A stretch of 64,000 nucleotides of DNA, from assembly GCA_947502495.1 (NCBI GenBank), contig CANNAC010000001.1:124001-188000 (forward strand). Reading direction: 5' to 3'. Made by a program: the position numbers and the translations under genes. Below are positions 10,476 through 27,232 of this stretch, piece after piece; position 1 is the stretch's first letter; each line of letters opens with the position of its first letter. Under the pieces are notes generated by a model. The model was not told where the DNA came from. It saw only the letters and a list, made by a program, of their open reading frames with translations, and made no database searches. Source of the DNA: an uncultured Flavobacteriaceae bacterium (GTDB taxonomy: Bacteria; Bacteroidota; Bacteroidia; Flavobacteriales; Flavobacteriaceae).

Positions 10476-10511
10476 GGAATGTCTATAAATTAATAAATTA
10501 AATAAAAAATC

Positions 10512-11192
10512 ATGAAAATTAAATTAGTAGTATTATCCGTATTCACTTTCTGTTGTGTTTTTAATGCAGAAGCTCAAAAATTAAAAAAGTTTGGAAGTTC
10601 TGTCGAGAAAAAGATTGGTCCAAAAACAATTAAAGTACCTTATACAGATGTTATATCGTATTTAGGTTACGCTTCTGCAGGAAATGAAGACGAAATAGTA
10701 GATGGTAAAAAATTCCATTATATATACTTATGGATTCCTGCTGTTGCTCCAGAACTTGGTGTAAGAATGCTTTCTCCTGTAGCTAAAACAAAAATTAAAG
10801 GAGCTATTAGTTCGGAAGCTTACACAGAAAACGCTTCTTCTAGCGATTATTTTGACACGTACATTACTTTAGAACGTTCTACCATTTTCAAAAAAGAAGA
10901 TATTACTGTAGCGACTGCTAAAAGTGCTACTTGGACTAAACTAGATAGCAATGATGATAGTAGTGAAATGCCAAAACAACCTAGTGGAAGAAGTTACAAT
11001 TCGTTATTAAGATATAAGAGTGAAGTGGGAAGTCCTACAAAAGCTTTAACTGCTGGTTTATACCGTATTGGTTTTACAACGTATAAAACAGGAGAAGTTA
11101 AAGGAACCTTTTTAGCAGAAGTTGCAGCTCCAGTAAAATTACCAGGTGTGGTAATGGCTAAAACCATTGAAGCACTTAAAAAAGAACTATAG
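10512..11192 (+). CDS. LipL32-family secreted surface protein
   Basis: 226 aa. The signal peptide (to about 22, AEA-Q) has no lipobox, so it is probably a type I substrate, unlike lipidated leptospiral LipL32. The core matches LipL32 in order: YIYLWIPAVAPELGVRMLSP, YFDTYITLERS, SYNSLLRYK, and GLYRIGFTTYKTGEVKGTF. These correspond to the best-conserved strands of the leptospiral protein. The acidic Ca-binding run of LipL32 is only partly kept (KLDSNDDSSE). In Leptospira it is the most abundant surface protein, with debated function. Here it ends an operon under probable two-component control. Confidence 0.88.
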   Translation: MKIKLVVLSVFTFCCVFNAEAQKLKKFGSSVEKKIGPKTIKVPYTDVISYLGYASAGNEDEIVDGKKFHYIYLWIPAVAPELGVRMLSPVAKTKIKGAISSEAYTENASSSDYFDTYITLERSTIFKKEDITVATAKSATWTKLDSNDDSSEMPKQPSGRSYNSLLRYKSEVGSPTKALTAGLYRIGFTTYKTGEVKGTFLAEVAAPVKLPGVVMAKTIEALKKEL

Positions 11193-11218
11193 AAATAAAT
11201 AGACATTCTTATTTTAGT

Positions 11219-11253
11219 AAAACACCTCTTTATGTATATAAAGAGGTGTTTTT
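11219..11253 (+). terminator. Terminator of the LipL32 operon
   Basis: AAAACACCTCTTTA pairs with TAAAGAGGTGTTTT around a 4-6 nt loop, followed by Ts. The 250 bp after it (to 11507) hold no convincing gene. They contain no copy of the downstream array repeats. Confidence 0.9.
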
Positions 11254-11507
11254 ATGATTTCTATTAAAGTGTTTTTAATAGGGAATCCGCATTTCATTTA
11301 TAAGGTATTGTAAGCCGTTTTTAAATTCGGATATTTATTATTGGGAAACGAAGTGTGAATTTAGAAAGATGATTTTTTAGAAATAACATTCTATGTCGTT
11401 CGGGTTTCCCATATTGTGATACGTTCATGTAAAGTCTCACTATTTTTAATTTCTTTTTATTCATCCGTTATTTCATCATATGTTACAAACATCGAAGTTT
11501 TCTTCTT

Positions 11508-11876
11508 TTATTCTCGTAAAATTTTCTCCAGTTTACGACCTTTTGCCAATTCATCAATGAGTTTTTCCATACGTCTGCATTGTTTATATAATTCAAATTC
11601 ATCCTCTATTTCTTCAATTCGATAACCACAAACGACTCCTTTAATTAAGTGTGCATTGGGATGTATTTTAGCTTTTTGAAAGAATGTTCTAAAAGTAGCT
11701 TTCTCTTTTATAAGTAGTTGTAAGGCATCTTTATCAAAACCAGTAAACCATTCTATTACTTGGTCGAGTTCTTCTTTTTTTCTACCATTCTTCTCCAGCC
11801 TATTTAGGTAAAGTGGATAAATGGTTGCAAATATCATATTAGCGACTTTTTCATTTTTTAAGGCAGTAACTTTCAT
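11508..11876 (-). CDS. DUF2200 family protein
   Basis: 122 aa. The sequence follows the DUF2200 pattern closely: KVANMIFATIYPLYLNRLEK, KEELDQVIEWFTGFD, NAHLIKGVVCGYRIEEIED and a C-terminal IDELAKGRKLEKILR. Function unknown; no signal or membrane segment. It lies at the distal end of the cassette array, on the cassette strand, beyond the decayed repeat R1. No clean repeat follows its stop codon, so it may be a stranded old cassette or a chromosomal gene. DUF2200 genes also occur as mobile cargo elsewhere, from memory. Confidence 0.88.
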   Translation of the reverse strand: MKVTALKNEKVANMIFATIYPLYLNRLEKNGRKKEELDQVIEWFTGFDKDALQLLIKEKATFRTFFQKAKIHPNAHLIKGVVCGYRIEEIEDEFELYKQCRRMEKLIDELAKGRKLEKILRE

Positions 11877-11898
11877 CTTTATTTTATTTTGAATTAAT

Positions 11899-12006
11899 TG
11901 AAGTTCACGTGTTTTAAATAACCTGTTTTATAAACAAAACCGAACCAAAGAAAATCCGCGAGGATTTTTGTAAGTAGGCGAGAACCTAGCAATTAAATAT
12001 ACACGT
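11899..12006 (+). repeat. Array repeat R1, 5' part (attC-like, decayed, interrupted by IS110)
   Basis: It shares with R3 and R7 the central block (CGAACC, a GAAAATCC/GGATTTT-type hairpin, AAGTAGGCGAGAACCTAGCAATTAA) and ends in TATACACGT. The 5' arm is damaged: the stretch corresponding to TGTGTAAGATTAGTTGCG in R3 is missing and the AAC core reads CAC. The last 13 bp of the repeat lie beyond the IS110 element at 13308-13320. Confidence 0.8.
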
Positions 12007-12060
12007 CTTAAGTTAGCATTTTAATAAAAGTACTAATTTTAAGATATAAATAGAAAGAAC

Positions 12061-12228
12061 AAAAGAGAGAAATAAGATTAGTATACACGGTGAAGCATTA
12101 GACTTCGACAACATTGATAATCCTCTCTCTTTTACTACTAATATTTCGTTCAGTTCTGTGAGACCTAGATCTCGTTTTCAAGTTGTTGAAACATCGGTAG
12201 CTATGTTCTTTCCAAATTTCAAGTTGTT
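12061..12228 (+). ncRNA. Candidate bridge RNA region of the IS110 element
   Basis: IS110-group elements encode a bridge RNA in the non-coding end before the transposase. Here AAAAGAGAG (12061) and GATTA (12076) pair with TAATC (12118) and CTCTCTCTTTT (12123), a strong 5' stem-loop. About 95 nt follow that could supply target- and donor-binding loops. Exact ends and guide loops were not worked out. The assignment rests on family knowledge plus the hairpin. Confidence 0.45.
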
Positions 12229-13197
12229 ATGAATAAATATAAAGAAATTTATGGAATTGACATCAGTAAAGATGTCTTTGATGTTTATGGTTCAAAAAGT
12301 GGACATAATCAATTTAAAAATGAAGCCAAAGGTTTTGTATGCTTCCTAAAGGATTTAGAAAAAGACGTTTTGATAGTCATGGAAGCTACAGGCTATTATC
12401 ATTATCGTTTAGCACAGTTTTTATACAAATCAGGCTTCCAAGTTTCTGTAGTAAATCCATTATCTGTAAAGCGATTTATCCAGATGAAATTAGCTAAGGT
12501 AAAAACAGATAAAAGTGATGCTAAAGCGATAAGTGAGTATGGAGAGATGAATGATGTTCCATTGTACACGGCTTTAACAGATGTTCAGAGTGAGTGTTTG
12601 CAATTGTTTAGACTATTAGATAGTTATATAAAACACAGAACAGCGACAAAGAACAAACTAAAAGGAGAAGAAGTCTTAGGTATTCCTTCAAGGTTTGTTT
12701 ATCGTTCTTTAACTCGAAATTTAAAACATTTAAACAAAGAAGTTTTAGCATTGGAATCCCGTTTACTGGAGCTTGTTAAACAAGACCAGCAACATCAATT
12801 AACGTTATTAAAAAGTATTCCAGGTATGGGTGTAAAAACGGCTTTGTTTTTAATCGTTGTAACCGATGGATTTAAGAAGTTTGAAAACGCATCACAGCTA
12901 TGTAGTTATGTTGGTATTACACCAACTATACGAAAATCTGGGAGTAGTGTAAGAGGTCGAAGTAGAATAAGTAAAGTAGGTAACAAGAAACTAAGAAATC
13001 TACTGTTTTTATGTGCATTTTCTGCATGTAAGCACAATAAGGCTTGTAGAGAGATTTATGAACGATTGGTTGCCAAAGGAAAGAGTAAAAAACTTGCGTT
13101 AATAGCAGTAGGTAATAAGTTATTAAAGCAAGCTTTTGCTATTGCTAAATCAGGATTGCCATATTGTGAAAATCACGTTTCAGTATTGCCTAAATAG
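12229..13197 (+). CDS. IS110-family transposase (DEDD recombinase)
   Basis: 322 aa. The N-terminal RuvC-like DEDD domain shows GIDISKDVFDV (Asp10), VMEATGYYHY (Glu52) and the acidic pair in KVKTDKSDAKAI. The C-terminal transposase_20 domain shows SIPGMGVKTALFLI, FENASQLCSYVGITP and the catalytic-Ser region GSSVRGRSRISKVGNKKLR. Length and both domains are complete, so the element may be active. It is transcribed against the cassette genes. Confidence 0.95.
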   Translation: MNKYKEIYGIDISKDVFDVYGSKSGHNQFKNEAKGFVCFLKDLEKDVLIVMEATGYYHYRLAQFLYKSGFQVSVVNPLSVKRFIQMKLAKVKTDKSDAKAISEYGEMNDVPLYTALTDVQSECLQLFRLLDSYIKHRTATKNKLKGEEVLGIPSRFVYRSLTRNLKHLNKEVLALESRLLELVKQDQQHQLTLLKSIPGMGVKTALFLIVVTDGFKKFENASQLCSYVGITPTIRKSGSSVRGRSRISKVGNKKLRNLLFLCAFSACKHNKACREIYERLVAKGKSKKLALIAVGNKLLKQAFAIAKSGLPYCENHVSVLPK

Positions 13198-13221
13198 TAA
13201 AGAATTACATAAAATATAAAA

Positions 13222-13250
13222 GGCTCAAAACAATAATATTATTTTGAGCC
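13222..13250 (+). terminator. Hairpin after the IS110 transposase
   Basis: GGCTCAAAA and TTTTGAGCC arms with an 11-nt A/T loop, 25 bp after the transposase stop. No T-run of note follows. Confidence 0.5.
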
Positions 13251-13307
13251 AAAACTAATAATGTCTAAAATTAACGAAGAAAAGAGTTGTTTTTTACCTC
13301 AGTTCTT

Positions 13308-13320
13308 TGTTAGCCACTGG
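13308..13320 (+). repeat. Array repeat R1, 3' end (cassette core GTTAGCCACTGG)
   Basis: This is the part of R1 displaced by the IS110 element. GTTAGCCAC at 13309-13317 is the boundary of the HigBA cassette. It matches the reverse complement of the other boundary (TTGTGGCTAAC at the start of R2). Confidence 0.8.
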
Positions 13321-13329
13321 CTCCTGCAG

Positions 13330-13686
13330 TTAGTAATCTTGAATTAATACTTCGGTAGGAATATGAAGAGTAGTATTCAGTTTTCTAATCATATCTAAAG
13401 TCAGTTTTCGTTTTTTATTCAAAATCTCACTAACTCTACTCTTAAAACCAACAACTTCAGCCAAATCTTTTTGTTTCATTCCCATTTGTTCCATTCGGAA
13501 TTTAATAGCTTCAATAGGATCAGGCATTCCAATTGGAAAATTTTCGTTTTCAAATCGGTCAATTAAGATTGAAAGTATTTCAAGTTCGTCTCCTTGTTCA
13601 GTTCCTTTTTTAGAATCAAAAATCTCCTCAAGTCTTTCGAGTGCTTTTTGATAATCTTTTTCGTTTCTAATAGGTGTAATATTCAT
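13330..13686 (-). CDS. higA: HigA-type antitoxin, HTH domain
   Basis: 118 aa. An acidic helical N-terminal part (ERLEEIFDSKKGTEQGDELE) is followed by a Xre-type helix-turn-helix at about 65-115 (MGMKQKDLAEVVGFKSRVSE, NKKRKLTLDMIRKLN), the usual form of long HigA antitoxins. It lies 2 bp after the toxin gene on the same strand, the normal toxin-first HigBA order. Its stop is 9 bp before the array core, as expected for a cassette gene. It probably represses its own promoter through the palindrome at 14017. Confidence 0.93.
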   Translation of the reverse strand: MNITPIRNEKDYQKALERLEEIFDSKKGTEQGDELEILSILIDRFENENFPIGMPDPIEAIKFRMEQMGMKQKDLAEVVGFKSRVSEILNKKRKLTLDMIRKLNTTLHIPTEVLIQDY

Positions 13687-13688
13687 AA

Positions 13689-13982
13689 TCAGATATTATT
13701 TGCGTCAATTTTGTCATATTCAGCGTGAGTTCCGATAAATCTTATCCAACAAATTTGAAATTCAAAATTGAACTTCACAATTAATCGATAATTATTTCCT
13801 TTAATGTTGTAGACAATTCTATTGTCCTTTAAAATACTTGCGCTAGGATATTCCCTTTTTAATTCGTTTATATTATTCCATTCGGATTTTTCGGTTTCTC
13901 TGTACCACGATTTTAATTGTTCTTCACAACCTGCGTGTTTTTCCCAAAAATCTCGTAAAGTTCGTTTTGCGATTACTCTCAC
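13689..13982 (-). CDS. higB: HigB-type mRNA interferase toxin
   Basis: 97 aa, basic. It follows the HigB_toxin family: MRVIAKRTLRDFWEKH at the start, LKSWYRETEKSEW, NRIVYNIKGNNYRLIVKFN, and the family ending FIGTHAEYDKIDANNI. HigB cleaves translated mRNAs at the ribosome. As first gene of its cassette it has its own promoter (TATATTTG at 14000-14007, minus strand), so it does not depend on an array promoter. Toxin-antitoxin cassettes are a known stabiliser of large integron arrays. Confidence 0.95.
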   Translation of the reverse strand: MRVIAKRTLRDFWEKHAGCEEQLKSWYRETEKSEWNNINELKREYPSASILKDNRIVYNIKGNNYRLIVKFNFEFQICWIRFIGTHAEYDKIDANNI

Positions 13983-13999
13983 ATTATAATTGTTTGACG

Positions 14000-14007
14000 C
14001 AAATATA
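14000..14007 (-). promoter_or_regulatory. Promoter minus-7 box TATATTTG of higBA
   Basis: Minus-strand TAnnTTTG box 18 nt before the higB start codon. Confidence 0.6.
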
Positions 14008-14016
14008 ATAAAAAAG

Positions 14017-14031
14017 TTACCAATATGGTAA
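14017..14031. promoter_or_regulatory. Palindrome TTACCAATATGGTAA, candidate HigA operator
   Basis: Perfect 6-bp arms around a 3-nt centre, placed 10-24 bp upstream of the higBA minus-7 box. It is well sited for autorepression by the HTH antitoxin. Confidence 0.55.
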
Positions 14032-14050
14032 TTATTGTGATTTTTTTAGC

Positions 14051-14194
14051 TTGTGGCTAACGGTCTTGTATAAAAATAGTTGCGTTTTTTCGAGCGAGGA
14101 TTTTCCGAAGGAAAATCAGAAGTAGCAAAAGTGCAACGGCTTTTAAAATTAGTTCTAAATATAGCAATTTTTTTTATGCGTTGTTAGCTACAGT
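14051..14194 (+). repeat. Array repeat R2 (attC-like, 144 bp)
   Basis: Outer core TTGTGGCTAAC (HigBA cassette side), 6-nt spacer GGTCTT, arm GTATAAAAATAGTTGC, central hairpin GGATTTTCC-GAA-GGAAAATC, complementary arm GCAATTTTTTTTATGC, 3-nt spacer GTT, outer core GTTAGCTACAGT (next cassette). GTTGC (14079) can alternatively pair with GCAAC further in (about 14133). Confidence 0.9.
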
Positions 14195-14512
14195 TTATAG
14201 AAGAGCTAGAAGAATAACTGACCCAATTATTAAAAACGTTTTGGTTATAAAAATGGACTTCATATAAAATTCCAATTTTGAGTTATGAATCCATCTAACA
14301 ATAATTATTAGCCAACTAATAAATCCAATAAATATTGTGAATAAAGATAAAAGTGCAGGTATATTTATGGCAAAAGAATCTACTTCATTGGTTTGGTACA
14401 ATCCATTTTTAAATATGTCATCTAAAAGTAGAGAAGTTGAAACGAACAGAAACATAAGTGCAATTGCATGAAAAATAATTAATGATATTTTTTTTATTTC
14501 TTGGACTGTCAT
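14195..14512 (-). CDS. Cassette-borne membrane protein, function unknown
   Basis: 105 aa with three hydrophobic segments, at about 10-30 (ISLIIFHAIALMFLFVSTSL), 50-70 (PALLSLFTIFIGFISWLIII) and 88-105. No recognisable domain. The stop codon directly abuts the R2 core, the tight packing usual for cassette genes. It shares one cassette with the 172-aa gene upstream, from which it is separated by a leftover core at 14526. Confidence 0.7.
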   Translation of the reverse strand: MTVQEIKKISLIIFHAIALMFLFVSTSLLLDDIFKNGLYQTNEVDSFAINIPALLSLFTIFIGFISWLIIIVRWIHNSKLEFYMKSIFITKTFLIIGSVILLALL

Positions 14513-14525
14513 TTATTTTAAACTT

Positions 14526-14539
14526 TATTAGCTACAGTG
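14526..14539 (+). repeat. Orphan cassette core TTATTAGCTACAGT
   Basis: TTAGCTACAGT here repeats the 3' end of R2 (14184-14194) but the rest of a repeat is missing. It probably marks a lost repeat between two once separate cassettes. Confidence 0.55.
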
Positions 14540-14541
14540 TT

Positions 14542-15060
14542 TTATTCAGTCATTGTAAATCCAGCTCTTGTTTTTAATTTATTCGGTTTAAACATAAATG
14601 AAACTCCATTAATATTTAAATCGGTCAATTCATCAAGTTTTTTATAATCCGTAAAAATTTGACAAGAAACAGCAGTGAAATCAAATCTACTATCCACAGG
14701 ATTGAAAAATAATTGAATTCCACCATCATAAGTGTTTTCAATTAATTCAACGTTTGGGAATAATTCAGTTAAATATTCCAATTTTAGATTCAGATTTTTT
14801 CCGCTAAATTCAATATAACTAATTGGCTTGTCAGTTTCATTTTCTTCCAAGTCAGGATTTATAGCAATATAATTCAGATTTTCATTTCTTGGAATTAAGA
14901 ATTTAGAGGTTCGTTCTGTTTTTTTATATTTAGGATTTTCAATGCCAAATAAATCAGAAAAGGTTTTTGTTGATTGAGAATTTCCATTCGATAATAATTC
15001 AGAAATTGAGTCCAACCATTCTTTTGATTTTGTATTGTCTATGTTTTTTAATTCAGTCAC
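14542..15060 (-). CDS. Cassette-borne protein, function unknown (about 172 aa)
   Basis: The open frame extends to a TTG inside R3, but that stretch would merely translate the repeat. GTG at 15058-15060 (TELKNIDNTKS follows) is the likelier start, just after the R3 core. The protein is soluble and acidic, without signal or membrane segments. It has a Trp-rich early helix (SKEWLDSISELL) and mixed alpha/beta character later (IQLFFNPVDSRFDF). It resembles immunity- or SMI1-like small cytosolic cargo only in general composition. I assign no function. Confidence 0.65.
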   Translation of the reverse strand: MTELKNIDNTKSKEWLDSISELLSNGNSQSTKTFSDLFGIENPKYKKTERTSKFLIPRNENLNYIAINPDLEENETDKPISYIEFSGKNLNLKLEYLTELFPNVELIENTYDGGIQLFFNPVDSRFDFTAVSCQIFTDYKKLDELTDLNINGVSFMFKPNKLKTRAGFTMTE

Positions 15061-15073
15061 GATGTTTCTCAAA

Positions 15074-15212
15074 TTGTAGCTAACGTGTTTGTGTAAGATT
15101 AGTTGCGTGTTCAAGTAACTAATTTAGCAAATAAAAACCGAATAGAATATTCCGCAGGAATATTCGTAAGTAGGCTAGAACTAGCAATTAATTTTACACG
15201 TTGTTGCCAGTA
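15074..15212 (+). repeat. Array repeat R3 (attC-like, second subtype)
   Basis: Outer core TTGTAGCTAAC, spacer GTGTTT, arm GTGTAAGATTAGTTGC, central hairpin GAATATTCC-GCA-GGAATATTC, arm GCAATTAATTTTACAC, spacer GTT, outer core GTTGCCAGTAGT. With R1 and R7 it forms the subtype whose centre reads CTAATTTAG…AAACCGAA…AAGTAGG…GAAC. Confidence 0.9.
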
Positions 15213-15227
15213 GTATTTAATCCGGTT

Positions 15228-15878
15228 TTAAAAATTCCAATTTATAATTGGTAGTTTTCGTTTCTCGTTAATATTCCAAAGTCCTAATTGAATTCCTTTT
15301 GTGTTTTTACTTTTATTCCAAATTCCGATTTGTAGCCCAACCATTTTTTCATTCGCGTTATTCAATCCACCAATTTGAATCCCTTTCATATATTCCGTTG
15401 AATTCGATATTGCGATTTGAATACCATTACTATAAATTGCTTCGTTAAGTAATCCAGCAATTTGAATTCCATTTGAGTTATCCATTCCGTTCCACAAACC
15501 AGCAATCGCAATTCCGTTGTTTTCGGTTCCGCTTTGAGTAACTAAAGCCAATGTTATTCCGTTATAAGATATATCTCCAATTGTTCCACTCGAAATATTT
15601 AAACCATTGACAATTTCATCTGTTTTTTCGTTTCTAAGCAAACTACCATTTGCCATAAATCCGATAAGTCCAATTCCTGGAATTTCTAATCTAATTCCAT
15701 TCGTTCTTACAAATCTCTGTTTGTTATTTAGCTGCGGTAAAGCTCCAAAAGAAATTCCATTAATAGTAGTGTTTTGAGTGTGAAAAGTTCCAAATAAATA
15801 TCTGGTTTTTTCATTATAATCTTGACTAAAACAAGTAATTGAAATCAGAAGTAAAATGGTTATTGTGAGGTTTCTCAT
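15228..15878 (-). CDS. Secreted surface-repeat protein (LA_2272-like)
   Basis: 216 aa with signal peptide (to about 19, TCFSQ). From residue 90 on it is built of imperfect 20-residue units with the core NGIQIAGLxN or KGIQxGxWN, at least six of them: NGIAIAGLWN, NGIQIAGLLN, NGIQIAISN, KGIQIGGLNN, VGLQIGIWNK, KGIQLGLWN. This is the pattern of the LA_2272 surface repeat, first noted in Leptospira. It predicts a stacked beta structure at the cell surface. The IS3 element starts 4 bp upstream of its ATG and has probably removed the native promoter region. Confidence 0.8.
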   Translation of the reverse strand: MRNLTITILLLISITCFSQDYNEKTRYLFGTFHTQNTTINGISFGALPQLNNKQRFVRTNGIRLEIPGIGLIGFMANGSLLRNEKTDEIVNGLNISSGTIGDISYNGITLALVTQSGTENNGIAIAGLWNGMDNSNGIQIAGLLNEAIYSNGIQIAISNSTEYMKGIQIGGLNNANEKMVGLQIGIWNKSKNTKGIQLGLWNINEKRKLPIINWNF

Positions 15879-15920
15879 ATATGTCTTGTCCTGAAATACG
15901 GCTACAGGTTAAAATTGATT

Positions 15921-16790
15921 TTACGCTGATAATTTGTATACCATATTAGGTGTTTTATAGTCTAAAGATAAATGTAATCTTACTTCATTGTATAAATTAA
16001 TTGCACTTTTTGCAGCTCTCTTTGCGTGTGCTACGTTTTCAAAGGTTTGATCGAGATAAAATTCGTCTTTTAGTATTCCGTTTACGCGTTCTGCCATGGC
16101 ATTTTCGTAGCAATGATTTTCTTCAGTCATGCTAATATCTATCTTTTTTCTTTTGAGTATTTGGGTGTATACATTGCTACAATACTGTATTCCTCTATCA
16201 GAGTGGTGTATTAGCCCTTTAATGTTTTTAGCTTGATAAATGGCCTTATTTATTGCTCTCACACATCCTTTAAGTTCCAAGCTATCACTTAGATCATAAC
16301 CAACTATTCTCCTAGAGTACATATCTGTTATTAAAGCTAGGTAACAAAACCCTTTAACTGTTCTAATGTATGTGATATCTGATACCCAAACTTGGTTAGC
16401 TCTAGTTACTTCTAAGTCTTTTATGATGTTATTATATTTATAAAATCGATGATAAGAGTTAGTAGTTCTAGCGCTTGTTTTCTTTCTAAGTGTTAGCATA
16501 TTATGCTTTCTAAGCACTTTAAATAGTGTATCTCGGCCTACTTTAATGTTAGCTTTAACAAACTCTTTGTCTAAAGATCTGGTAAGTTTACGAACACCTT
16601 CTCTAGGAAGGGATTTGCGTCTTTTTCTAACAATATCTATAATTTGTTGTTCTAGTTTTATACGCTTATCAGCTCTTTTTTTATGCTTATAATAAGCATT
16701 ACGTTTAAGTCCAAAACAATGAGTTATAGTTGTCAGAGAAGCAAATCCCTTAGATTTCTTTTTAGCTTTAATTAAGGCTTTATACTTAGC
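15921..16790 (-). CDS. IS3 transposase OrfB, made as OrfAB by -1 frameshift
   Basis: 289 aa from the slippery site, without a start codon of its own near the 5' end. HTH_21-like region (GFASLTTITHCFGLKRNAYY), then the rve integrase core with the DDE residues in WVSDITYIR, HHSDRGIQYCS and NAMAERVNGILKDE. The final part includes LHLSLDYKTPNMVY. The frame is intact. The run of nine A then G (16799-16790 read on the minus strand) at the end of orfA lets ribosomes slip back one base into this frame. Confidence 0.93.
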   Translation of the reverse strand, partial: AKYKALIKAKKKSKGFASLTTITHCFGLKRNAYYKHKKRADKRIKLEQQIIDIVRKRRKSLPREGVRKLTRSLDKEFVKANIKVGRDTLFKVLRKHNMLTLRKKTSARTTNSYHRFYKYNNIIKDLEVTRANQVWVSDITYIRTVKGFCYLALITDMYSRRIVGYDLSDSLELKGCVRAINKAIYQAKNIKGLIHHSDRGIQYCSNVYTQILKRKKIDISMTEENHCYENAMAERVNGILKDEFYLDQTFENVAHAKRAAKSAINLYNEVRLHLSLDYKTPNMVYKLSA

Positions 16791-17143
16791 TTTTTTTTTA
16801 GTTCATTAACCGATTTATAGCCAAGATCTTCAGCTGCAACTTCAAGATAACAATCTTGTACCATAGCATCGAGATCCTTTTTAAGTAGTAGCTTTTTAAG
16901 CTGCTCAACCTCTTTTTGAAGTGCCTTAATTCTAGATATTTCGTCTTTTGTTTCCACTTTTACTCTGGTGTTCATTAAGTCTTTACGATTATACTTTTTA
17001 ATCCACTCATTTACCGTTGTAGGTGCAATAGAGTAGAGTTTACAAAGTTCGCTCTTTGTGTGTTTTCCGGTTGTAAGTTCGGCTAAAATTTTTAATTTAA
17101 AAGGTTCGCTGTAACGTCTAATTACTTTGTCATTTCTATACAT
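16772..17143 (-). CDS. IS3 transposase OrfA
   Basis: 123 aa. The N-terminal helix-turn-helix (RRYSEPFKLKILAEL, TKSELCKLYSIAPTTVNEWI) is followed by a leucine-zipper helix (EISRIKALQKEVEQLKKLLL) and the usual short tail. It overlaps orfB. Alone it is expected to act as regulator; fused to OrfB by -1 frameshifting it forms the transposase. Confidence 0.93.
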   Translation of the reverse strand: MYRNDKVIRRYSEPFKLKILAELTTGKHTKSELCKLYSIAPTTVNEWIKKYNRKDLMNTRVKVETKDEISRIKALQKEVEQLKKLLLKKDLDAMVQDCYLEVAAEDLGYKSVNELKKKLSIKP

Positions 17144-17188
17144 AATGTTTAAAATTATGTAGCCTTATTTTAGGACGGGTCACAATTA

Positions 17189-17330
17189 AAGATAACGTGT
17201 TCGTGTATGGAAAGTTGCGTTTTTGTAAGCGAGGATTTTCCGAAGGAAAATCAGACGTAACAAAAGAGCAACAATTTTAATTTAAGCACTAATCTAGCAA
17301 TTTTTGATACACGTTGTTAGTTTTTAGTGC
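17189..17330 (+). repeat. Array repeat R4 (attC-like)
   Basis: Outer core AAAGATAAC (abuts the IS3 end), spacer GTGTTC, arm GTGTATGGAAAGTTGC, centre GCGAGGATTTTCC-GAA-GGAAAATC, arm GCAATTTTTGATACAC, spacer GTT, outer core GTTAGTTTTTAGTGC. The 5' core does not match the other end of its cassette (GTTGCCAGT), the only mismatch in the array. Confidence 0.9.
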
Positions 17331-17630
17331 TTTTTAGATTCCAATTAAATTCTTTTTTATTCATTATATTTTTCAATTCCGCAAACTTGCTAAAATTCCG
17401 TTTGAGTGATTTCCCTTTTTCCTTTTTTGGAGTTTGAGTAAATAATTCCGCAACTAGCTAAACTCCGATTGAGTAAGTTTTAGCGTAATCTATTTTTTTT
17501 TGATTCCGCAAGCAAGTTAAATAACCCATAAAATATTCCTTTTAGAAATTGAGTGAGAATTGATTTTTATATCTTTTTGGAAAATAGCATATTCATGTTA
17601 CGTTTTTAATTCCGCAAACTTGCTTAAGCA
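17331..17630 (-). other. Non-coding cassette made of degenerate repeats
   Basis: Between R4 and R5 there is no ORF longer than about 23 codons. Instead the + strand holds four diverged units: TTCCGCAAACTTGCT (about 17378), TTCCGCAACTAGCT (17446), TTCCGCAAGCAAGTT (17513) and TTCCGCAAACTTGCTT (17610). Most are followed within about 40 bp by a (T)GAGTRA element (TTTGAGTGAT, TTGAGTAAG, TTGAGTGAG). The boundaries GTTAGTTTT and AAAACTAAC match, so it behaves as a true cassette. A structured RNA or decayed gene are both possible. Confidence 0.6.
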
Positions 17631-17771
17631 TTAAAACTAACGGTTACGTATAAGAATAGTGCGGTTTTGTGTGCGAGGATTTTCCGTAGGAAAATCAGAA
17701 GTAACAAAAATGCACTGTTCATTGTTTAAGCACTAATCTACGCATTATTTTTATGCGATGTTAGCCACTGG
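17631..17771 (+). repeat. Array repeat R5 (attC-like, best-paired copy)
   Basis: Outer core AAAACTAAC, spacer GGTTAC, arm GTATAAGAATAGTGCG, centre GGATTTTCC-GTA-GGAAAATC, arm CGCATTATTTTTATGC, spacer GAT, outer core GTTAGCCACTGG. On the + strand all 16 arm positions pair, counting G-T wobbles. On the minus strand the wobbles become A-C mismatches. Confidence 0.92.
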
Positions 17772-17773
17772 TT

Positions 17774-18568
17774 TTATTTCAGTTGAAAATGGATATGATC
17801 ATCGTGTCTCACAGCTTGACAACCATGAAATCTTACTTTTCCATTTTTTAAATTCAGTCGATGTTTTAAATGAGGTTCAATAAATAGTTTTCCAATCTCA
17901 TTTCGTTTGAGAATCAGATTTGCTAATTCTCGAGTTCCTTTATTTGAAAATTTTATTTCTTTATTAATTGTACCTAAAGTGACATATTTCGTAAAATCGT
18001 ATTGCCAATTCCCTTTGTTTTTGCAAATAGAAATTTGGTCATATTCCTTTTCAGTTGGACTTTCAAAAGCTCCATAACCACTTATAGAAGGTTTTTTATT
18101 TGTAAGTTTTCCATTTTTATTTTCGTAAATCAGAGAAATATCTATTTTCTTTCCGTCGTTGTGACTCAAATGTGGGAGTAAAGGAAATTTGTCAATGAAA
18201 GGAAAATTTGCGTCTAGATAAACCATTCTGATTCCGCTATTCCGTTTTTCAAAGTCGTTAGCTATTTTTTCAATTGCTTTGTTTAATTGAGGTTTAACAT
18301 AATTTCTATTAGCTAGTTTGTAAAAGAATGAATGAGCTTGAAGAAATTCCGTTTCCTTTATTTTCTCACGACCAAAAGTTGGAGCTAAGTTTGGTATAAT
18401 TAGAAAAGTTGCAAAAATGTAAAGTGTTGCGAAAATTCCGATTCGCTTTAATCTTTTCTTTTCAGTTTTCTTATTAACTAGGATTAATGAAATAAGGTAA
18501 ATTAATCCGCCTATTTGAGTAATAGCGGTTAAAAGAAGTATAATTATAATGTAAAGTATGATTTTCAA
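17774..18568 (-). CDS. Membrane-anchored LAS-family metallopeptidase (MepA/M15-like)
   Basis: 264 aa. Two N-terminal transmembrane helices (about 3-30 and 44-64) are followed by an extracytoplasmic domain. It keeps the zinc-ligand pattern of LAS peptidases: SHNDGKKIDIS (first His and Asp, about 140-150) and RHDDHIHFQ near the C-terminus (HxH). MepA and M15 enzymes cut peptidoglycan cross-links or D-Ala-D-Ala. Activity here is inferred from these motifs. Its stop abuts the R5 core and its start is 14 bp from R6, so it fills one cassette. Confidence 0.72.
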   Translation of the reverse strand: MKIILYIIIILLLTAITQIGGLIYLISLILVNKKTEKKRLKRIGIFATLYIFATFLIIPNLAPTFGREKIKETEFLQAHSFFYKLANRNYVKPQLNKAIEKIANDFEKRNSGIRMVYLDANFPFIDKFPLLPHLSHNDGKKIDISLIYENKNGKLTNKKPSISGYGAFESPTEKEYDQISICKNKGNWQYDFTKYVTLGTINKEIKFSNKGTRELANLILKRNEIGKLFIEPHLKHRLNLKNGKVRFHGCQAVRHDDHIHFQLK

Positions 18569-18581
18569 TAGTATGTTTAAC

Positions 18582-18722
18582 TTGTGGCTAACGTTGTTGT
18601 ATAAGAATAGTTGCGGGTTTGTATGCGAGGATTTTCCGAAGGAAAATCAGACGTTACAAACACGCAACGACCTTTGATTAAGCACTAAACCGCAATTATT
18701 TTTATACGGTGTTCTACGCAGT
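18582..18722 (+). repeat. Array repeat R6 (attC-like)
   Basis: Outer core TTGTGGCTAAC, spacer GTTGTT, arm GTATAAGAATAGTTGCG, centre GGATTTTCC-GAA-GGAAAATC, arm CGCAATTATTTTTATAC, spacer GGT, outer core GTTCTACGCAGT. The two outer cores are unrelated to each other, yet each matches the far end of its own neighbouring cassette. Confidence 0.92.
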
Positions 18723-18724
18723 TT

Positions 18725-19162
18725 TTATTTTAAATATTCTATTAATAAATTCAATTCGTTTTCCGAGTATTTGAAATTATGACTGTTCGCTTGATTTCCC
18801 CATTCTTCTTTAATTGCTAAAGCGTATTTATCTTTGTTTTCGGTCAGAGAATCTTGTTTCGTTATGTATAATTTTAAATAATCAGCACCAACTTTATCTA
18901 CGATTCCATCCAAATAATTATGAAGCCGTCCTTTAGTAACGTGACACTTTTTGCAATCGGTTAAGAATAATTCCAATCCTTTTTCAAATTCAGGTGTTCG
19001 TATATCATCTTTAGAAACTAAAGGTACGTAATCTGGTTTGTCAGAAGTAAACTCTGTAATTCCGTTTATTTTGAGAATATAAAGAATTCCGAAAACCACG
19101 ATAATCGCAAGGATAGAAAATCCGAGTATTATTTTCCATAATCGTTTGATTAGTTTATTCAT
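18725..19162 (-). CDS. Membrane-anchored mono-haem cytochrome c, cassette-borne
   Basis: 145 aa. One N-terminal transmembrane anchor (about 10-31) and a small c-type cytochrome domain with CKKCH (about 70-74). A helical tail follows (NSHNFKYSENELNLLIEYLK) that resembles the last helix of class I cytochromes. No clear distal Met is obvious. It overlaps the upstream gene by 8 bp, so the two are translated together. The stop lies 2 bp from the R6 core. An electron-transfer protein as mobile cassette cargo is uncommon. Confidence 0.75.
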   Translation of the reverse strand: MNKLIKRLWKIILGFSILAIIVVFGILYILKINGITEFTSDKPDYVPLVSKDDIRTPEFEKGLELFLTDCKKCHVTKGRLHNYLDGIVDKVGADYLKLYITKQDSLTENKDKYALAIKEEWGNQANSHNFKYSENELNLLIEYLK

Positions 19163-19556
19163 TTTGGTGTTCGAGTATTAACTTGATTTTCTGTTCAGAA
19201 ATCAATTTTTTAATATCATTGAATTCCATTTGTTTTATTCCTTCAATCTCTTTTCTTGGTCGATACACTTTAATTTTCGAATAATAACTTGCCTTACTTA
19301 CAAAAAAGTATAGGTCAGTTGAATCTTTTTCTTTTGTCCAAACGTTTAATCTTTTCCAATTCTTTCCAACAATTCCGAATTCAGATGTTTCCTCATTTAC
19401 AATTATATCCGAATCTTTCGATTCATAATAAATGTTTTGATAATCGCCATATTGGTCTTCAATTTCCATTAATGAAAATCCGTAACCAATAAGTCCAACA
19501 ACTGAAATTGTCACAATTCCAAAAATCAGAAGTCCATATTTTAATGCTTTGCTCAA
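19155..19556 (-). CDS. Cassette-borne single-pass membrane protein, function unknown
   Basis: 133 aa. One hydrophobic segment at about 8-28 (YGLLIFGIVTISVVGLIGYG) with an extracytoplasmic remainder (VGKNWKRLNVWTKEKDSTDLY) that looks like a small beta-rich domain. Its 3' end overlaps the cytochrome c gene by 8 bp, so a shared role in an envelope redox or sensing step is possible but unproven. The start is 13 bp downstream of the R7 core on the minus strand. Confidence 0.7.
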   Translation of the reverse strand: MSKALKYGLLIFGIVTISVVGLIGYGFSLMEIEDQYGDYQNIYYESKDSDIIVNEETSEFGIVGKNWKRLNVWTKEKDSTDLYFFVSKASYYSKIKVYRPRKEIEGIKQMEFNDIKKLISEQKIKLILEHQNE

Positions 19557-19569
19557 TGTTTGTTTTAAA

Positions 19570-19712
19570 TTGCGTAGAACGTGTTCGTGTATGATTAGTT
19601 GCGTGTGTAAGGATCTAATTTAGTAAACAAAAACGAACCGGAGAAAATTCCGCAGGAATTTTCCAAATAGGCGTGAACCTAGCAATTAATGATACACGTT
19701 GTTGTAAACAGT
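19570..19712 (+). repeat. Array repeat R7 (attC-like, second subtype)
   Basis: Outer core TTGCGTAGAAC, spacer GTGTTC, arm GTGTATGATTAGTTGC, centre GAAAATTCC-GCA-GGAATTTTC, arm GCAATTAATGATACAC, spacer GTT, outer core GTTGTAAACAGT. It is the repeat nearest the recombinase. Confidence 0.92.
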
Positions 19713-19713
19713 T

Positions 19714-20358
19714 TTATTCACAAATTAAATTATAATCATTAACTAATTCTATTATGTCAATTTCTTCATATAGATCATTATTTAAATATGCGACGATTTC
19801 TTTACAGTCAGAAAAATATTTAATAGCCTTTGTTTTGAATTTCCGTAAAGACTTTTGAGAAATCAAAGGAGTAAGCTGAGGCTCGCCATCTCTAATTATA
19901 TAATATTCATCATCTTCTTTAAACTCTGGTTTTTTAAAATTTACAGAGACAGTAATACCTGGTAGATTAGGACTATAATTATTAGTGGTATCAATTACTT
20001 TATATACAGTTCTAGTATATAATTTCGCTTTTCCATTTATTAATTTTTTAAATAGTCTTAATTTGCGTTTTTTTATTGGAACATATTCGTAATATCCATA
20101 GTCTGGATCATAAGTGTCAAAATATATTTTATCGATTTGTGATTTATCAAAAATGACCCTTTCTTCTTCTATTTTGGTTTTAAATGCAACCCATGATCTT
20201 CCGTATGTTATTGCATTAATTTCAATCATTGGTATCAGAATTATACCTTTTAACGTGTCTCCTTTTTTTAAAATCAATTTCCCAGGAGTCCATTCATACT
20301 GTCCATAGCTAATTGCGCATACAAGAACTAAAATAATAAACATAATCTTTTTCTGCAT
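19714..20358 (-). CDS. Secreted protein, function unknown; first cassette
   Basis: 214 aa with signal peptide (to about 19, SYGQ). The mature part is basic and Tyr/Lys-rich, with an early beta strand pattern (GKLILKKGDTLKGIILIP), typical of small flavobacterial secreted proteins that I cannot place in a family. One Cys pair late in the sequence (SDCKEIV, LICE). It is the cassette next to the recombinase, with its start 12 bp from the candidate attI core and its stop 1 bp from R7. If cassettes are inserted next to the recombinase, this is the newest one. Confidence 0.75.
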   Translation of the reverse strand: MQKKIMFIILVLVCAISYGQYEWTPGKLILKKGDTLKGIILIPMIEINAITYGRSWVAFKTKIEEERVIFDKSQIDKIYFDTYDPDYGYYEYVPIKKRKLRLFKKLINGKAKLYTRTVYKVIDTTNNYSPNLPGITVSVNFKKPEFKEDDEYYIIRDGEPQLTPLISQKSLRKFKTKAIKYFSDCKEIVAYLNNDLYEEIDIIELVNDYNLICE

Positions 20359-20370
20359 TGCTTGTCTAAA

Positions 20371-20405
20371 TTGTTTACAACTGGTTATATCCTAACAAAT
20401 ATAAC
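20371..20405 (+). other. Candidate primary insertion site (attI-like)
   Basis: TTGTTTACAAC matches the far end of the first cassette (GTTGTAAACA at R7) but is not followed by a full repeat. Directly after the AAC comes an inverted pair, GTTATAT (20384-20390) and ATATAAC (20399-20405), with an 8-nt spacer. This is a layout like a simple tyrosine-recombinase core. It lies between the recombinase stop and the first cassette. Confidence 0.55.
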
Positions 20406-20417
20406 AATTTTTGGGTC

Positions 20418-21581
20418 TTATGTTCCGGATATGCCAACTTTCTCTTGCTGTTTACGGGCGTCCATAATTTGCTTTACCGCATGATCTAACGGACTGCTAA
20501 TTGCCAATAAATCCTTTTTGGCTACATGCGTATAAATCATGGTCGTTTCTGGTTTCGCATGCCCTAATAACGCTTGTATATAACGTATATCTGTTCCTTG
20601 TTCCAATAAATGTGTAGCATAACTATGTCTTAAGGTATGCGGCGTTACTCGCTTTTTAATTTGTGCCAGATTACAGGTCTTTTTTAGAAATGCACGAACA
20701 CTTTCCGAACTGTACTTGCCGTGATTCTGCCCTTCAGCAAAATAACGCTTTGGCCTATATGTGCTTAAATAATTGCGCAATAATGGTAAAAAACTTTCTG
20801 CTATGATTACATAACGATCTTTTCTTCCTTTCGCATTTCTAATCGTTATTTGCTTTCTAGCAATATCTATATGACTTAATTCTAAATTAATTAACTCGCT
20901 AATTCGTAAACCACAAGAGTAAATGATAGCAATAATGGCACGATGTTTTAAGTTTTTTGTGACACTTATTATTTGAATTACTTCTTCTAACGACAAAACA
21001 GTTGGTAACTTTTTATCTCTTTTTGGACGAACAAGTAACAATTCCTCTAAAGAAATAGTCGGATAGTAGTTTTTAAAAATTTTTAAAGCACTAATAAACT
21101 GTCGTTGCTTACTAATAGAATATTGTCTTCTTATATAAATATCTTCAATATACAGTTCTGCATGCCTATTGTTTAAGGAATCAACCAGTTCTTTATGATG
21201 GTAAGCTATAAAATCTGCAGTTAAAAAAGTATAGGTATCTATAGTGCTTTGGCTATATCTTTTGCCTCTTAAGTATTTGTAAAAACCATTTAAAATGGCT
21301 TTTTGCTCCGTAGTAAGTTGAGAAGTATTATGAAATACTTTTATTGGCGCACTTTTCTTAAGAATAGAATCATCAATAGTATATGCATGGAATTTTTTTC
21401 TAATATTTTGTAGATTTTCCGAAGATCGTATCACATACCATTTTTGCAAACTCGCACTCCATTTTCTGCCAGGAATAGTCCGTACCAATTGGATGACTGC
21501 CTGATTGTAATCAAAACAAATTAAAATTTGCTCTGCTTTATTATGATACTTCGGTTTTAACGTTATAATTATATTTTCCAT
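20418..21581 (-). CDS. XerC/D-like tyrosine recombinase of the cassette array
   Basis: 387 aa. Residues 1-70 form an extra domain with IPGRKWSASLQKWYV (36-50), a pattern like the HARP DNA-binding domain and like the N-termini of some Bacteroidota integrases. About 90-180 is a SAM-like core-binding domain (YSQSTIDTYTFLTADFI). The catalytic domain shows Arg226 (GLRISEL), Lys251 or Lys254 (NAKGRKDRY), His315 and Arg318 (HTLRHSYATHL), His341 (LLGHA) and Tyr350 (TTMIYTH), followed by SPLD. Only about 55 residues separate the beta-hairpin Lys from HTLRH, so the extra segment that marks integron IntI proteins appears to be absent. It is complete and oriented with the cassettes, 60 bp from the first. 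Confidence 0.93.
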   Translation of the reverse strand: MENIIITLKPKYHNKAEQILICFDYNQAVIQLVRTIPGRKWSASLQKWYVIRSSENLQNIRKKFHAYTIDDSILKKSAPIKVFHNTSQLTTEQKAILNGFYKYLRGKRYSQSTIDTYTFLTADFIAYHHKELVDSLNNRHAELYIEDIYIRRQYSISKQRQFISALKIFKNYYPTISLEELLLVRPKRDKKLPTVLSLEEVIQIISVTKNLKHRAIIAIIYSCGLRISELINLELSHIDIARKQITIRNAKGRKDRYVIIAESFLPLLRNYLSTYRPKRYFAEGQNHGKYSSESVRAFLKKTCNLAQIKKRVTPHTLRHSYATHLLEQGTDIRYIQALLGHAKPETTMIYTHVAKKDLLAISSPLDHAVKQIMDARKQQEKVGISGT

Positions 21582-21643
21582 GATTTTTTATTAAAGGACT
21601 AACCTTTAAATATAGAAAATAAACGACACAAAAGCAAGTAGAT

Positions 21644-22198
21644 TTACTTCCACTTTATATTACAACCAATACTGGGTTTTTGAAGTTTTGTATTTTCCGT
21701 TTTATTTAACACACAATCTAAAGCATGATGTAGATCTAATCCTGTAACAGCAACACCATTTCCTGGTCTAGAATCGTCTAATTGTCCGCGATACACCAAA
21801 AGTAAATCGGCATTAAAAACGTAAAAATCTGGAGTACAAGCGGCGTCATAAGCTTTTGCTATTTCTTGGGTTTCGTCATATAAATACGGGAAAGGATATT
21901 GGTTTTCTTTTGCGTGCTCCTTCATTTCTGCCGGTCCGTCTTGCGGATAATTTTTTGCGTCATTACTAGAAATAGCTATAAATCGAACACCTAAATCTTC
22001 ATATTGCTTTGCCATTGTTACTAAAATCGGATTTACATGAATTACAAACGGACAATGGTTGCATATAAACATAATAACAGTTGCTTGGTTTCCTTTTAAT
22101 TGCGGAAGTGGTAATCGTTTACCGGAAACGGTATCCATCAATTCAAAATTGGGAGCTTTTGTACCCAGCGGAAGCATATTCGAAAGTGTTCTTGCCAT
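21644..22198 (-). CDS. Thioredoxin-fold redoxin (AhpC/TSA family)
   Basis: 184 aa, cytosolic. The fold is evident from GTKAPNFELMDTVSG, KGNQATVIMFICNHCPFV, RFIAISSNDAKNYPQDGP and a late ACTPDFYVF (cis-Pro). The active-site region NHCPF has a single Cys in place of the CxxC of thioredoxins, as in a common branch of family proteins. It may be a peroxidase or thiol protein; no substrate can be named. It is a chromosomal flank of the cassette array. Confidence 0.88.
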   Translation of the reverse strand: MARTLSNMLPLGTKAPNFELMDTVSGKRLPLPQLKGNQATVIMFICNHCPFVIHVNPILVTMAKQYEDLGVRFIAISSNDAKNYPQDGPAEMKEHAKENQYPFPYLYDETQEIAKAYDAACTPDFYVFNADLLLVYRGQLDDSRPGNGVAVTGLDLHHALDCVLNKTENTKLQKPSIGCNIKWK

Positions 22199-22283
22199 AA
22201 CTTAATTTTTGACTAATGTAAAAAAATAAAAATCCAAAAAGCAAAATCTAAATTCCAAAAACAATATTTTGTACATTTAGCGC

Positions 22284-22619
22284 ATGAGTAATACTATAAA
22301 TTTTGATGATTTTACTAAAGTAGATTTGCGAATAGGCACTATTATAGAAGTTAACGACTTTCCAGAAGCTCGTAATCCTGCGTACCAACTTACCATCGAT
22401 TTTGGTGCTTTAGGAATTAAAAAATCTTCGGCACAAATAACAACGTTATATAAAAAGGAGGATTTACTAAACAAACAGATTGTTGCTGTTGTCAATTTTA
22501 AGAAAAAACAGATTGGTAAATTTATGAGCGAATGCCTAGTTGTTGGTGCTGTGAATAACAAAGATGTTATTTTATTAAATCCGGAAAACAAAGTCAAAAA
22601 CGGAACTACTGTCTCTTAA
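22284..22619 (+). CDS. csaA: CsaA-type tRNA-binding protein
   Basis: 111 aa, a single EMAP-II/OB-fold domain. Characteristic residues: FTKVDLRIGTIIEVNDFPEARNPAY, GIKKSSAQITTLY, QIVAVVNFKKKQIGKFMSE and VVGAV. It binds tRNA and has been linked to secretion chaperoning in Bacillus. A TACATTTA box ending 4 nt before the ATG suggests a near-leaderless transcript. Two base pairs separate it from the transporter gene, so the three genes to 24558 form one operon. Confidence 0.92.
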   Translation: MSNTINFDDFTKVDLRIGTIIEVNDFPEARNPAYQLTIDFGALGIKKSSAQITTLYKKEDLLNKQIVAVVNFKKKQIGKFMSECLVVGAVNNKDVILLNPENKVKNGTTVS

Positions 22620-22621
22620 AT

Positions 22622-23530
22622 ATGGTGGAATTAGACGATGTAAAAATTAATTTTGATGCCAACGGACTTTGGGTCTTAAACATTGCACTTGCCATAGTTA
22701 TGTTTGGCGTTGCTCTTGGTGTAACGATTAACGATTTTAAAGAATTGTTTAAACAACCAAAAGTAGTTTTACTCGGTATACTTTCGCAATTTGTACTATT
22801 GCCTTTTGTGACATATCTTTTTATTTTACTTATAAAACCACAAGCAAGTATTGCGCTTGGTATGATGATGGTTGCTGCTTGTCCTGGCGGAAATATTTCT
22901 AATTTCATGACGCATCTCGCAAAAGGAAATACCGCACTTTCTGTAAGTTTAACTGCTTTTGCTACTTTTTTAGCCATGGTTTTAACGCCGATAAATTTTC
23001 AGTTTTATGGCAATTTATACGAACCTACAGCGCAATTATTAGAGAATGTAGAATTGAATTTCTTAGATTTAGTACAACTTGTATTACTTATTTTAGGTAT
23101 TCCGTTAGTATTAGGAATGACTTTACGCAGTAAAATGCCGGAGCTTGCACAAAAGCTTTCCAAAATATTAAGACCCTTTTCTATATTCGTTTTTGTAGGT
23201 ATTGTTGTCGTCGCTTTTTCAAACAATTTAGATATTTTTAATCAGTATATAGATAAGGTATTACTTATTGGAATTAGTCATAATATTATAGCGATTGCAT
23301 TGGGCTTTTTTGTCGCTAAGGCTTTTGGCTTATCGTTTAAAAACCAAAAAACATTAGCAATAGAAACCGGAATACAAAACTCTGGTTTAGGCTTATTACT
23401 GATTTTCACTTTTTTCAATGGCCTTGGCGGCATGGCTTTAATGGCCGCTTTTTGGGGAATTTGGCATATTGTTTCTGGTTTATGTTTGTCCTTTTATTGG
23501 TCTTCAAAATCTAAAAAAGAAAGCATTTGA
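22622..23530 (+). CDS. Bile acid:sodium symporter (BASS) family transporter
   Basis: 302 aa with eight to ten hydrophobic helices. The family core is clear: VMFGVALGVTINDFKELFKQP near the start, GMMMVAACPGGNISNFMTHLAKGN (about 80-103), and IETGIQNSGLGLLLIF (about 247-262). These two crossover regions carry the sodium and substrate sites. Bacterial members move bile acids, pantoate or other organic anions; the substrate is unknown here. The TGA stop overlaps the TTG start of the next gene. Confidence 0.92.
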   Translation: MVELDDVKINFDANGLWVLNIALAIVMFGVALGVTINDFKELFKQPKVVLLGILSQFVLLPFVTYLFILLIKPQASIALGMMMVAACPGGNISNFMTHLAKGNTALSVSLTAFATFLAMVLTPINFQFYGNLYEPTAQLLENVELNFLDLVQLVLLILGIPLVLGMTLRSKMPELAQKLSKILRPFSIFVFVGIVVVAFSNNLDIFNQYIDKVLLIGISHNIIAIALGFFVAKAFGLSFKNQKTLAIETGIQNSGLGLLLIFTFFNGLGGMALMAAFWGIWHIVSGLCLSFYWSSKSKKESI

Positions 23531-24558: not shown

Positions 24559-24625
24559 GTCGGCGCGAGGTACGAAGTAAACTGTTAAAGGAATTCTGTT
24601 TTATTAACGAGGAGTTATGTGCTAG

Positions 24626-24703: not shown

Positions 24704-24732
24704 AGCCGGTATTAATTGTCAATTTATAGCCA

Positions 24733-24763: not shown

Positions 24764-24785
24764 AAAATTTTAAATGTTTCAGATA

Positions 24786-27175: not shown

Positions 27176-27232
27176 CACGTTGTTTTTTATAAATCATCAA
27201 AACAACAATCCTAACTTTAAATTAAAAATTAA

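Follow-up and report, generated by a model that had tools for sequence, protein, structure and literature searches.

We analyzed a stretch of 64,000 nucleotides (nt), hereafter the window, from an uncultured Flavobacteriaceae bacterium (assembly GCA_947502495.1, contig CANNAC010000001.1, positions 124,001 to 188,000), whose genome (G000) comprises 4.07 Mb in 60 contigs. On the minus strand of the window, a tyrosine recombinase gene (21581-20418) is followed by an attI-like site (predicted crossover G^TT at 20381) and then by seven cassettes, each closed by a repeat. With high confidence, we regard this locus as a chromosomal integron-type platform without IntI, composed of a tyrosine recombinase, its own attI-like site and co-directional cassettes. 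A cassette typically consists of one short gene and one attC-like hairpin site, and the recombinase belongs to a lineage found in Bacteroidia that is sited just upstream of its own attI-like site. The features of the locus are:

20418..21581, minus strand: tyrosine recombinase of 387 amino acids (aa), with an N-terminal extension of about 90 aa, a SAM-like core-binding domain and a Phage_integrase catalytic domain
20379..20404, minus strand: attI-like site TTATATTTGTTAGGATATAACCAG^TT, predicted crossover between G (20381) and TT, where a related metagenome-assembled genome (MAG) diverges
19580..20380, minus strand: cassette 1, open reading frame (ORF) 19714-20358 (unknown) and site R7; cores TTGTAAAC / GTTTACAA match
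19580..19721, minus strand: attC-like site R7 (covariance model match 19573-19708)
18592..19579, minus strand: cassette 2, ORFs 19155-19556 (unknown) and 18725-19162, and site R6
18592..18735, minus strand: attC-like site R6 (covariance model match 18585-18718)
17641..18591, minus strand: cassette 3, ORF 17774-18568 and site R5
17641..17782, minus strand: attC-like site R5 (covariance model match 17634-17767)
17196..17640, minus strand: cassette 4, without any ORF of at least 60 aa, and site R4
17196..17340, minus strand: attC-like site R4 (covariance model match 17189-17323)
15084..17195, minus strand: cassette 5, an element of the IS3 family of insertion sequences (IS), ORF 15228-15878 (LA_2272-type surface repeats) and site R3
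about 15888-17182, ends by eye: IS3-family element in cassette 5, transposase pieces 15921-16517 and 16772-17143
15084..15225, minus strand: attC-like site R3 (covariance model match 15077-15210)
14061..15083, minus strand: cassette 6, ORFs 14542-15114 and 14195-14512 (unknown), and site R2
14061..14200, minus strand: attC-like site R2 (covariance model match 14054-14190)
11883..14060, minus strand: cassette 7 (array end), HigB 13689-13982 and HigA 13330-13686
12010..13308 (ends approximate), plus strand: IS110-family insertion in the last attC-like site, transposase 12229-13197
47204-47337 and 48304-48441, minus strand: two isolated decayed attC-like sites flanking ORF 47385-48281, cores matching 4/5 by eye

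The original prediction, made from the sequence of the window, had described seven repeats of about 140 bp together with a tyrosine recombinase. Both parts of that description stood, and the attI-like site, the IS elements, the complementarity of the cassette ends and the modified GTT/AAC cores had been overlooked. With a covariance model whose training set includes two of them, R2-R7 were found as full-length copies on the minus strand (92-135 bits). R1 (11883-12009) is a weaker, degenerate copy (46 bits), recovered too by a sequence hidden Markov model (HMM) made from R2-R7. A search of window positions 10000-24000 against Rfam gave six matches to unrelated families, all far under their gathering scores, and none covered the repeat set.

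The attC-like site of cassette 7 is apparently split by the IS110-family element into 13309-13327 and 11883-12009 (R1). As its transposase is on the plus strand, the array genes are not all on the minus strand, contrary to the first description. Cassette 5 is probably composite because its two ends mismatch. In cassette 2, ORF 18725-19162 matched Cytochrom_C (28.4 bits, cut-off 21.3), and in cassette 3 ORF 17774-18568 matched a penicillin-insensitive murein endopeptidase below the cut-off. The listed start of ORF 14542-15114 falls inside R3, and its true start probably lies within cassette 6.

Repeats are also present elsewhere in the source genome, in one instance behind a second recombinase of the same kind. 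The decayed pair at 47204-48441 sits 26 kb from the window recombinase. Further groups were observed at C1:89-92 kb, C1:1029-1031 kb, the end of C2, C7, C11, C18, C20 and C22, several of them at contig ends or on tiny contigs consisting largely of array.

Cassette ends, hairpin sites and the attI-like site

Because integron insertion cuts within attC, a single cassette keeps complementary ends, whereas the halves of a given repeat are not required to match. Complementarity of cassette ends is therefore the decisive test. An HMM built from 34 repeats of the source genome was searched against the stretches downstream of 20 clade-A and 20 clade-B recombinases and against 10 stretches of the source genome itself. 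It gave 301 same-strand repeat matches, with AAC readable in 282 and GTT in 289; pairs without either were excluded. Over these 50 loci, the 5-nt core beside GTT was complementary to the core beside AAC at the other end of the cassette in 181/239 adjacent pairs (clade A 69/90, clade B 93/123, own genome 19/26), versus 80/2783 non-adjacent pairs (36/1147, 41/1530 and 3/106, respectively). The two cores inside one repeat matched in 7/272 cases (clade A 3/105, clade B 3/139, own genome 1/28).

In the window, six of the seven cassettes have complementary ends across 6 bases beyond GTT, the exception being the IS3-bearing cassette 5. Only two of the 5040 possible cassette orders reached the observed score, namely the real one and another in which two cassettes sharing a core had changed places. 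Matching ends were found in 9/9 cassettes of Lacinutrix himadriensis (L030). Among the 181 matching cassettes, 61 different 5-nt cores occur. A mismatch at position 8 is conserved, with A at the start of 181/181 cassettes and G opposite it in 155. Each of R2-R7 starts with AAC and ends in G^TT, so that the earlier statement that integron cores are lacking was only partly right. It held for the canonical consensus, since GTTRRRY occurs in just 12/181 cassette ends over all arrays, with GTTR in 178/181.

The sites form hairpins whose stem covaries. Across 55 diverse repeats, standard pairs occupy 92.1% of the stem cells, and the stem covariation was 0.277 versus 0.076 ± 0.009 after shuffling (0/500 as high) and at most 0.082 after sliding. 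An A.C mismatch is present at stem position 28/120 in 55/55 repeats and at 23/126 in 44/55; these positions become G.T pairs on the complementary strand. When the site was folded as in a circle, the bottom strand was the more stable one in 178/178 sites (the other three of the 181 had no definable limits), with means of -28.5 vs. -23.9 kcal/mol (difference -4.6). The circle form was more stable than the array form in 171/178 sites, and the six in-array repeats of the window, taken alone, showed only a moderate gain in folding over shuffles (z between -1.6 and -3.8). In published integrons, the folded bottom strand is recombined, which fixes the orientation of the cassette (PMC8946536, available sections).

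An attI-like motif was found 24-205 nt past the recombinase stop codon in 38/41 loci. In clade A it is typically TATATTT-N6-ATATAAC-N-AG^TT, and in clade B it is often a perfect palindrome, e.g., ATAAACGCACCGGTGCGTTTAT, followed by 7 nt and then the crossover. The window site contains TATATTTG, which may be a promoter. The core after the attI-like motif matched the first repeat found in 20/34 loci vs. 48/1122 cross-locus comparisons, a test which is not fully independent because the motif was derived from sites inspected beforehand.

Comparison with a related Oceanihabitans MAG showed that each of the two platforms of the source genome diverges from its counterpart precisely where the G^TT crossover is predicted. 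The MAG locus L025 is 93% identical to the window at the DNA level through the flank, the recombinase and the attI-like site, and diverges at window positions 20379-20381. Its first cassette starts with GTTATCTTTAATTG, and cassette 5 of the window starts identically. Similarly, locus L031 of the same MAG is 94.6% identical to L021, the second platform of the source genome, and diverges after ATATAACACG^TT. The comparison of array content between close relatives, which had been suggested as a check, thus showed arrays that differ exactly at attI, for this one MAG.

We propose that an excised cassette would form a circle in which the two halves of the site are joined, and that the bottom strand of this site would fold into a long hairpin with the private core of the cassette (N5-AAC ... 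GTT-N5) as its outer stem. At G^TT, the recombinase would then connect the folded strand with attI or with a further attC. Genes would in this way enter in one orientation, with the newest cassette beside the recombinase. From these sequence patterns, we infer that the window-type recombinase is the catalyst of excision and insertion, with folded single-stranded DNA as its putative substrate and cassette circles as likely intermediates. The cassettes would presumably be expressed from a common promoter.

Linkage to the recombinase, distribution and cargo

Recombinase homologs (E ≤ 1e-60) were detected in 90/199 genomes sampled from the family and 92/295 sampled from the class. Canonical IntI above the integron-integrase cut-off was found in 0/199 family genomes, and in 70/247 Bacteroidota genomes as a positive control. 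The original prediction depended on a link between repeats and recombinase, and this link was found at the loci examined, which were chosen from the homolog list with preference for long contigs. Downstream of 20 clade-A recombinases, 317 kb contained 113 repeats, 112 of them on the recombinase strand, and 377 kb upstream contained one; this upstream control covers clade A only. Downstream of 20 clade-B recombinases (36-45% identical), all 146 repeats were on the recombinase strand. By hand count, a contig end lies less than 5 kb downstream of the recombinase for 33 minus-strand matches, and upstream for one plus-strand match; such downstream breaks are expected because repeat-rich arrays would break draft assemblies.

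The covariance-model search across the family, another check named at the outset, found repeats in 168/199 genomes, with at most 16 candidates scored per genome. At least one repeat was present in 86/90 recombinase-bearing genomes; at least 10 were present in 59/90 genomes with the recombinase and 35/109 without. Thirty short IntI loci contained no match to the window-type repeat model at E < 0.01. The model was also without match on a Chryseobacterium plasmid (L208, NZ_CP041688.1), where direct inspection revealed a repeat type of its own with the same core logic. There, positions 16900-31500 hold a recombinase 39% identical, an attI-like site and cassettes of this other repeat type. By eye, two insertions beside cores break up the plasmid array, an IS110 element and a group II intron, and an ORF-less unit of ~190 bp recurs between its cassettes.

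The 181 matched cassettes have a median repeat-to-repeat distance of 788 bp. Their longest ORF is on the array strand in 163/181 and on the opposite strand in 5, none of 50 aa being present in 13, and the ORF stop lies at a median of 10 nt before the repeat. A scan of 120 cassette proteins, selected among the first 150 of 160 entries and other ORFs of the window, matched 52 Pfam families, the commonest in 3 members. With PADLOC, the matches listed (25 of 52 PADLOC families) comprise, among others, AbiEii, AbiGi, type I and type IV restriction, PD-Lambda-2 and PD-T4-1. Both the Pfam and the PADLOC samples are chosen subsets.

Cassettes are shared across genera. Among hand-chosen locus pairs, five cassette alignments link L078, L080 and L124, which belong to three genera and of which L124 has a clade-B recombinase, at 86-93% identity. 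Four of the five have their start 1-13 nt ahead of G^TT and their end 11-15 nt past it, and the fifth starts inside a composite cassette. In the alignment of L115 with L119, the start lies 47-48 nt ahead of G^TT and the end 2 nt past it; in that of L119 with L129, start and end both precede it, by 57 and 100 nt, respectively. Near-identical cassettes (93-100%) were observed repeated within one array in L079, L115, L129 and L112, which points to recent duplication.

The six IS110-type copies in the examined arrays (among them window 12010-13308; L018; L119, two; L122) are all in the same orientation, and 5/6 are followed 210-227 nt on by an attC-like repeat without its first 9-14 model positions. 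Judging from these positions, attC-like sites seem to be targeted by IS110 elements at their start. In canonical integrons, attC is the target of some IS1111-family elements, according to the accessible text of PMC11187229.

The recombinase family and the reading as a diverged IntI

The identification of the gene at 20418-21581 as a tyrosine recombinase was borne out by its Phage_integrase and SAM-like domains. The reading frame is intact, and the catalytic domain contains R226, H315, R318, H341 and Y350, which we take to be the catalytic residues. Its nearest named relative, 97% identical, is that of an Oceanihabitans MAG; the second recombinase of the source genome (L021) is 48% identical to it, and the cassette behind L021 has matching ends. 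Separately, the source genome encodes an XerD scoring above cut-off, plus another Xer-like gene. Many clade-B recombinase matches were flagged with an in-frame stop, either an end effect or a real pseudogene.

The most serious competing explanation is a very diverged true integron, in which the recombinase would be an aberrant IntI and the repeats ordinary attC sites. We consider it improbable. The region of the IntI insert holds 64-66 residues between motifs in 78/78 new recombinases, so that the insert is absent, versus 106 residues in 24/24 Bacteroidota IntI and 68-73 in 22 XerC/D. This alignment used 78 of 82 new recombinases (four clade-B loci had no usable frame), 24 of 30 IntI and 22 of 32 XerC/D. 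Against the integron-integrase HMM, the window recombinase and L021 scored 201.8 and 205.0 bits, under the curated cut-off of 265. In the tree, built from a chosen subset that left out the archaeal XerA, the new family formed one side of a branch (support 99/94), separate from the IntI group (100/100), and the XerC/D rows formed one side of another (100/100) with the new family outside. The recombinase was thus rightly held not to be IntI, and its phylogeny, the third check suggested, gave a clade apart from IntI and XerC/D. The rarity of GTTRRRY and the lack of repeat-model matches in the IntI loci also argue against a diverged IntI. A topology grouping IntI with just one of the two new subclades was not rejected by the approximately unbiased test (p-AU 0.16-0.17). 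The top structural match was an integron integrase (Z = 17.7), tied with XerA (17.5), in a comparison that hardly spans the N-terminal extension.

Among the NCBIfam models, XerA gave the best score for the window recombinase (208.9 bits, and 215.1 for L021, vs. a cut-off of 220); the scores for XerC were 170.5/178.9 (vs. 335.15) and those for XerD 170.2/176.5 (vs. 329.6). Sequence comparison gives only a weak hint that the N-terminal extension is related to the HARP domain (3/14 members at E ≤ 1, best 0.014; 12.9 bits for the window, cut-off 25), and a PDB sequence search with the extension gave no match. The extension is not universal, since the recombinase of L116 aligns from residue 95 onward only, yet heads an array.

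Weighing of the evidence and comparison with known systems

Several results weigh against an integron-type platform. Excision and integration are predicted from breakpoints, and both turnover comparisons come from a single MAG. The 5/5 match fails in 58/239 adjacent pairs (missed repeats, insertions, decay or exceptions), and 3/7 shared-cassette alignments (L119/L129, L115/L119 and one L080/L124) lack a G^TT boundary at one or both ends. The attI core mismatches the first repeat found in 14/34 loci, in 11 of which this repeat lies over 1.6 kb away from the stop codon, beyond typical cassette length. Dinucleotide shuffles also favor the bottom strand in 137/178 sites (mean difference -1.4 kcal/mol), and base composition therefore explains part of the asymmetry, though not its size. 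No repeat was detected in 5/40 downstream loci, three of which end at most 250 bases from the recombinase. Lastly, at least one repeat is present in 82/109 family genomes without a recombinase at E ≤ 1e-60. Under a laxer limit, 12 repeat-rich genomes of this kind yielded eight longer matches (1e-52 to 1e-60), one fragment of 127 residues and, in three, just weaker Xer-like matches. The threshold therefore hides part of the platforms, and the remaining recombinase-less groups may be clusters without integrase.

The arrays could also be inactive relics that are copied vertically, in keeping with the two IS elements and the degenerate last site of the window array. This has a slighter chance still, as a MAG 93% similar already differs at the first cassette, cassettes 86-93% identical occur in three genera, the recombinase frame is intact and all nine L030 cassettes match. 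We give hardly any credence to dispersed hairpins (of the kind of miniature inverted-repeat transposable elements or repetitive extragenic palindromes, or terminators) arrayed by transposition or homologous recombination beside a bystander recombinase, which would accommodate hairpins after gene ends, repeats in genomes without detected recombinase and near-identical duplicates in several arrays, but does not predict private complementary cores in different repeats (181/239 vs. 80/2783), the 113:1 downstream bias or the breakpoints at the attI G^TT.

Thus, an integron-type platform without IntI remains our preferred reading, and the proposal of a distinct Bacteroidota cassette system is supported by the computable tests named with it. 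We lean, with less assurance, towards a wider view in which integron-type recombination, between a folded strand and a double-stranded attI, arose or has survived in a second recombinase lineage without the IntI insert and constitutes the main cassette exchange of Flavobacteriaceae and relatives, across genera and both subclades, unseen by surveys for IntI and attC. So far, IntI and attC have been taken to define integrons as a single system. If our reading is true, a parallel platform in 90/199 family genomes, with a recombinase lacking an insert called essential, would alter this picture; the origin of integron recombination could be tested by comparing the two lineages, and a large pool of cassettes, defense genes included, would be opened.

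In the parts seen of the open-access literature (including PMC9668308, PMC3478194 and PMC2426708), we found no earlier description; preprints and most subscription journals were outside this scope, and an earlier description is possible. In the available text on IntegronFinder 2.0, one complete integron is given for Bacteroidetes proper, in Salinibacter ruber (PMC9024848), and the accessible part of a review names Bacteroidota among integron-bearing phyla (PMC8618304). The IntI insert is described as essential to the function of integrons, but its conservation within the subgroup concerned is incomplete (PMC8138268, sections seen).

Compared with XerA, XerC and XerD, the new family has the same domains, but it heads cassette arrays, mostly with an N-terminal extension. 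Some repeat clusters in the source genome and its relatives have no recombinase in the stretch examined, like CALIN (clusters of attC without integrase, as described in the available part of PMC9024848); unlike CALIN, their sites are not canonical attC. With sedentary chromosomal integrons, the window-type platform shares a recombinase beside an attI or attI-like site, same-strand cassettes ending in imperfect-palindrome sites, cassette-specific complementary ends, a G^TT crossover and a bottom strand that gives the better fold. Unlike them, it has a recombinase without the IntI insert and outside the IntI clade, cores that are mostly GTTR, and sites of ~140 bp with a conserved inner stem and A.C mismatches. 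The intI gene usually reads in the direction opposite to its cassettes, whereas the new recombinase reads towards them, with attI after its stop codon. Because of its integrase and its core consensus, the platform stands outside the IntI family, though it would be integron-like in its working.

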